Positions 11,726 through 11,797 of a stretch of 64,000 nucleotides of DNA are shown piece by piece. This DNA is from Cellulophaga omnivescoria. Lineage in GTDB: Bacteria > Bacteroidota > Bacteroidia > Flavobacteriales > Flavobacteriaceae. The notes below the pieces were generated by a model. The model was given only the letters and a program-made list of their open reading frames with translations. It did not search any database and was not told the origin of the DNA. The stretch spans positions 124,001-188,000 of the forward strand of contig NZ_MDDP01000043.1 of NCBI RefSeq assembly GCF_001999725.1. The letters run 5' to 3'. A program made the position numbers and the translations under genes. Numbering within the stretch: position 1 is the stretch's first letter; each line of letters opens with the position of its first letter.

Positions 11726-11732
11726 ATAATTC

Positions 11733-11784
11733 TAGTTAGTTAGTTAGTTAGTTAGTTAGTTAGTTAGTTAGTTAGTTAGTTAGT
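11733..11784. repeat. tetranucleotide microsatellite, 13 x TAGT
   Basis: Thirteen uninterrupted TAGT units (ACTA on the gene strand) fill 52 bp of the 72-bp gap between the GNAT stop and the amidohydrolase start, ending 7 bp before the ATG. Perfect tetranucleotide tracts of this length are prone to slipped-strand mutation. The tract sits in the 5' untranslated or promoter-spacer region, so changes of 4 bp would alter spacing and not reading frame. It may be a phase-variation switch (inference). Confidence 0.95.
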
Positions 11785-11797
11785 TTTTTGTCAGTAA

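Follow-up and report, generated by a model that had tools for sequence, protein, structure and literature searches.

Repeats of the kind considered here are known to slip in other bacteria, and the original prediction, which named this precedent, is accepted in that regard. In Moraxella catarrhalis an (AGAT)n tract lies 132 bp upstream of uspA2, where both strain variation and expression effects have been measured, graded effects on mRNA being reported (PMC7302503); PMC4679880 assigns the same tract to the 5' untranslated region. The tract upstream of nadA, a surface gene of Neisseria meningitidis, acts by spacing NadR operators in the promoter (PMC2791445). A further type comprises the TAACTGA repeats (MacGregor 2015, PMC4679880), i.e. 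short direct repeats in forward orientation just before start codons, which carry stops in every frame, lack secondary structure and occur as many sets per genome; these are reported also from Bacteroidetes, e.g. Gramella forsetii, with the equivalent gap in close relatives being without repeats. The broadest described class is that of long prokaryotic simple sequence repeats, perfect tandem arrays of 1-11 nt units longer than expected by chance (Mrazek 2007 and Guo and Mrazek 2008, both through PMC4679880).

The tract and its neighbouring genes

The window analysed, a stretch of 64,000 nucleotides from Cellulophaga omnivescoria, contains a perfect tetranucleotide tract at 11733-11785, which reads (TAGT)n on the plus strand and (CTAA)13.25 on the minus strand, the latter being the sense strand for both neighbouring genes. 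Tandem Repeats Finder and direct reading of the sequence give (TAGT)13.25 with period 4, 13.2 copies, 100% matches and no indels, that is 13 units and one base, a copy number taken from a draft assembly of 51 contigs. The tract had been predicted to be a perfect repeat of 52 bp in a gap of 72 bp; perfection and gap size are as predicted, but the length is 53 bp. The gap extends from the amidohydrolase ATG (11725, minus strand) to the GNAT stop codon (11798) and comprises, in minus-strand features, the 7-nt non-repeat stretch GAATTAT (11726-11732) between tract and ATG, the tract itself, and a 12-nt non-repeat stretch (11786-11797) that separates the tract from the stop codon of GNAT. The predicted separation of seven bases from the start codon is thus confirmed, as is the location outside the reading frame, which applies to both genes; the repeat unit gives stops in all three frames on either strand.

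All 11 overlapping matches to three TAGT units in the window fall within the tract, against 0.05 expected from dinucleotide shuffles. Across the whole genome the tract is the single place with four or more TAGT units, and the 1.094 Mb of the genome sampled contain no other tetranucleotide repeat of at least 16 bp. The tract is a plain case of a known descriptive class, the long simple sequence repeat, located in an intercistronic spacer; like the long repeats cited in PMC4679880 it is perfect, intergenic and far beyond chance in length, and has no anatomical difference from them.

The downstream gene (10445-11725, minus strand) encodes an M20-family amidohydrolase of 426 aa that scores 362 bits against TIGR01891 (cut-off 154), and so belongs to that family, and 407 against the CpsA equivalog, under the cut-off of 500. 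Its N-terminal segment, MKTKNKFILTLLLCGAALQAQ, is signal-peptide-like as judged by eye, and the earlier description of the product as a secreted amidohydrolase stands. The upstream cistron, co-directional with the amidohydrolase gene (11798-12259, minus strand), encodes a GNAT acetyltransferase of 153 aa, with 77-86% identity across five congeners in which the gene order is kept.

Comparison with the described systems reveals partial likeness in each case. The tract resembles that of uspA2 in being a non-coding tetranucleotide repeat upstream of an exported product; by contrast with the uspA2 tract, 132 bp upstream, it is only 7 nt away from the ATG and has a cistron on either side. With the nadA tract it shares the nature of a simple repeat upstream of a gene, but there are no -7 or -33 Bacteroidetes elements around it that it could space. 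It is similar to the TAACTGA repeats in being made of short direct repeats in forward orientation just before a start, with stops in all frames and no secondary structure; unlike them, it has a unit of 4 bp (TAAC) instead of 7 bp, in a spacer without TAACTGA, and is a single tract, compared with their many sets per genome before starts.

Transcription and translation across the spacer

The primary promoter of Bacteroidetes is TTTG/TANNTTTG, and the refined form of its -7 element is TAHHTTTG (PMC6847099). Pattern scans of the minus strand gave no full match to TTTG/TANNTTTG near the tract, and no relaxed -7 box (TANNTTT[AG]) from 12290 to the amidohydrolase ATG; the repeat unit is by itself unable to form TAHHTTTG, and generic sigma-70-like matches are in no excess over shuffles. 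The only conserved box, TATCTTTA (12290-12297, minus strand), which differs from the TAHHTTTG consensus in its last base, lies upstream of the GNAT gene, ~500 bp before the tract, is kept in all six congeners, and is a candidate promoter for a GNAT-amidohydrolase unit. Because this box precedes GNAT and none lies downstream, the amidohydrolase gene most probably forms the downstream cistron of an mRNA that begins before GNAT, transcription start sites in the analysis being predictions, and the tract would then lie in the spacer between the two cistrons. An effect on promoter spacing, one of the two routes originally suggested for the tract, is not borne out by these scans.

The region beside uvrD has features of its own. 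In other genera, at loci where uvrD adjoins the amidohydrolase gene without GNAT (L020-L023, L036, L039, L040), a TAnnTTTA element equivalent to the TATCTTTA box is located immediately before the amidohydrolase gene, which likewise counts against a promoter at the tract. At 12320-12440 of the window, a block, AATAATTATAAACAAT, is found upstream of uvrD; it also occurs at each of the loci just listed, is kept in different genera regardless of which gene comes next on the opposite strand, and probably belongs to the uvrD promoter.

The second suggested route, via leader structure, fares no better. The predicted centroid structure of the spacer RNA is empty, there is no fold above shuffles for the spacer as either RNA or DNA, and no RNA families were found at 9000-14000. 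When the copy number was varied computationally, positions -20 to -1 were identical at every length of 4 units or more, and mean predicted accessibility from -20 to +20 stayed at 0.68-0.72 across 4-25 units, in a secondary-structure prediction that is blind to protein binding (bS1, Csp) on the repeat. The part that would vary under slippage is the distance from GNAT stop to amidohydrolase start, which ranges from 36 to 120 nt over 4-25 units. The start region being unchanged by length, a large stepwise effect is therefore unexpected, barring one of coupling distance or of a repeat-binding protein, and the stepwise output that had been proposed is not predicted via any computable route.

Relatives and the family census

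The comparison within the genus covered 18 species, with one genome per species. The GNAT-amidohydrolase order is also present in five other members (G002, G003, G015, G006 and G008), in all of which the spacer, of ~45-50 nt, lacks the tract. Three of the five have one TAACTGACTAA at the tract's place, where TAACTGA is present in three congeners as a single, unrepeated copy, and the spacers of G002, G003 and G015 contain TAACTGACTAATTA near the ATG. The remaining genus members and the other genera compared also have no tract, their uvrD-amidohydrolase interval holding a different gene or none. Since these relatives are without it, the tract is limited to one species or strain among those compared.

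The sequence next to the tract has itself diverged. A block spanning most of GNAT up to the tract (11786-12207, minus strand) shows 15.1% divergence from G002, the sister species, compared with 5.4% in the flanks (Fisher p 1.5e-10), while other species pairs rise much less in the block, e.g. G002-G015, with 17.0% against 10-14% in the flanks. The block may be read as a recombination footprint, and the comparison suggests, as the simplest reading, a recombined GNAT allele ending at the repeat, with faster evolution of GNAT contributing to the divergence.

The original prediction had called such repeats little described in Flavobacteriaceae. This is fair as regards the literature searched, which gave nothing specific on flavobacterial contingency repeats beyond a related heptamer survey with few Bacteroidetes (PMC4679880); the tracts themselves, however, are present in the family, with six TAGT units occurring in 24 of 397 Flavobacteriaceae genomes (~6%). 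Among 23 distinct TAGT tracts, 11 lie no more than 45 nt upstream of a start codon, and all 11 have CTAA, and none TTAG, in the sense direction. Two observations bear on whether this pattern is peculiar to CTAA. The reversed unit, TGAT, used as a control, is commoner (six units in 41 of the same 397 genomes), and most of the 29 TGAT tracts likewise precede starts and have ATCA, their strand free of G, in sense, none within 45 nt having TGAT in sense; the orientation bias is therefore general, and the idea that CTAA tracts are special was rejected. Likewise, in the sampled parts of this genome (1.09 Mb) and the sister genome (0.4 Mb), CTAA proto-repeats of at least 8 bp before starts number 14 sense and 2 antisense, a bias equal to that of the long tracts, with 11 and 0 (Fisher p 0.50), which argues against selection as the source of orientation; the share of intergenic repeats that are pre-start and sense is 14/52 for proto-repeats and 11/23 for long tracts (p 0.11). 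Thus, both the place before starts and the CTAA-sense orientation follow from base composition. A family-wide CTAA regulon was also discarded, the downstream genes varying between genomes with the exception of one genus pair.

Two results of the census are of a different kind. Each of the 11 genes that follow a pre-start CTAA tract is scored as encoding a membrane or exported product, compared with 50% of background genes (binomial p 0.0005), in a post hoc test with one tract per genome and a crude hydrophobicity score as the basis of the call. Two species of another genus share an intercistronic site that bears a similar tract, of 7 units in one species and 8 in the other, with 93% identity in the remaining DNA, which shows unit-wise length change between species.

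Other repeats occur in this and related genomes. A strongly conserved element, typically ATCAATCAAAAAA(C/T)GAACAGT, lies 1-38 nt before the starts of PadR-family regulators (L151, L154, L173, L176, L180, L292), ABC ATPases and FtsX-type permeases (L296, L297, L300), with further loci at L163, L168, L169 and G000:C28:133954-133991. With a following ATG it was present in 31 of 60 relatives and in 18 of 18 genus genomes, the reversed control giving 0 matches, and it has no Rfam match. In several genera, homologous PadR loci carry its ATCA part in an expanded form of 6-12 copies. The element looks like a putative regulon element with a slippage-prone half. In several species of the genus the same ATCAATCAAAAAACGAACAGT element also occurs in reverse orientation, ~110 bp beyond the end of a primary-sigma-factor-like gene, where it adjoins a hairpin, CTCCGG...CCGGAG (L298 1010-1034 on G000:C10; L293; L301). 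Trinucleotide tracts include one of 18 TCT copies (L283 3699-3753; G000:C12, about 223699-223753), just before a short, seemingly broken transposase-like frame, and, in the sister genome G002, one of 19 GTT copies (L219 10642-10699) that falls within a long open reading frame, with a penicillin-binding-protein-like gene nearby.

Origin and possible roles of the tract

The combined observations are probably best explained if the tract is a young, lineage-specific, slippage-prone microsatellite in an intercistronic spacer that is near-neutral for expression. Slipped-strand replication would have expanded a short CTAA-like proto-repeat, at a place occupied by TAACTGACTAATTA in relatives, within the untranslated spacer of the predicted GNAT-amidohydrolase bicistronic unit. 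As translation in Flavobacteriaceae starts without Shine-Dalgarno pairing, the spacers just before their start codons are rich in A, poor in G and unstructured; in Flavobacterium johnsoniae, initiation is favoured by A at -3, -6, -12 and -13 and by low structure (PMC6847099), and pre-start regions in the present genome have 58% A at -12 and 6-9% G at the positions sampled between -16 and -4. An expansion of (CTAA)n, which contains no G, suits such a spacer and would be tolerated there. Each unit gained or lost would place the amidohydrolase start 4 nt farther from, or nearer to, both the GNAT stop and the distant promoter, with the initiation region untouched, and the effect on expression is therefore most likely none or small. 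The bias of the 11 downstream genes towards membrane or exported products bears against near-neutrality, being the pattern expected if variability of envelope or export functions were selected for.

That bias, which is unexplained by composition, weakly sustains a contingency hypothesis, in which the tract would be a translational rheostat. The unstructured (CUAA)n might offer bS1, or a different single-strand binder, a site for loading or standby, or it might set the coupling distance from GNAT to amidohydrolase, with slippage tuning output in small steps. At least six of the pre-start tracts in the family lie between co-directional genes, near both a stop and a start (L044, L046, L050, L053, L054, L057), two species differ by one unit at one such site, and for (AGAT)n upstream of uspA2 PMC7302503 reports shifts in mRNA level of up to 3.4-fold. 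Yet the constancy of start-proximal sequence and predicted accessibility across copy numbers, the fact that congeners manage without a tract, and the sufficiency of composition to account for orientation and place all count against such a role, which we regard as unlikely.

Other accounts are less readily reconciled with the data. An array bound by a sequence-specific regulator, as proposed for the TAACTGA heptamer repeats before start codons in organisms including Bacteroidetes (MacGregor 2015, PMC4679880), might be seen in the single TAACTGA of three congeners; the unit here, however, is a tetranucleotide without TGA, one tract in a genome is not a regulon, relatives of the amidohydrolase gene have no array, and the sampled part of this genome shows no enrichment of the heptamer before starts, making this proposal very unlikely. 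It is highly improbable that the tract acts as a spacer between the promoter or operator elements of a promoter immediately before the amidohydrolase gene: despite its nearness to the gene and the precedent of operators spaced by repeats at nadA, the minus strand there is devoid of both full and relaxed promoter matches, the tract cannot yield the -7 element, and the conserved box sits upstream of GNAT. An assembly error or inflated copy number might be envisaged in a draft of this type, copy numbers of simple repeats being error-prone, but is scarcely credible for a perfect tract with unique flanks that, at 53 bp, is well under usual read lengths, similar tracts being present in many genomes, including ones of few contigs.

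The preferred reading, of a near-neutral microsatellite, has a consequence for the family, in that the place before starts and the orientation match composition alone, so that such tracts in Flavobacteriaceae are not to be called contingency loci without data on length variation. It is distinctly doubtful, though conceivable, that G-free tracts, both (CTAA)n and (ATCA)n with GAACAGT, before the starts of envelope or export genes form a family-wide set of loci with slippage-tuned expression or translation that includes the tract in the window; such a class, if true, would sit in Flavobacteriaceae, which initiate without Shine-Dalgarno pairing. Should the present tract be a rheostat, it would be readily testable, the initiation region itself being constant, and would exemplify translation tuned by slippage in a phylum where initiation proceeds without Shine-Dalgarno pairing and other spacing rules apply.
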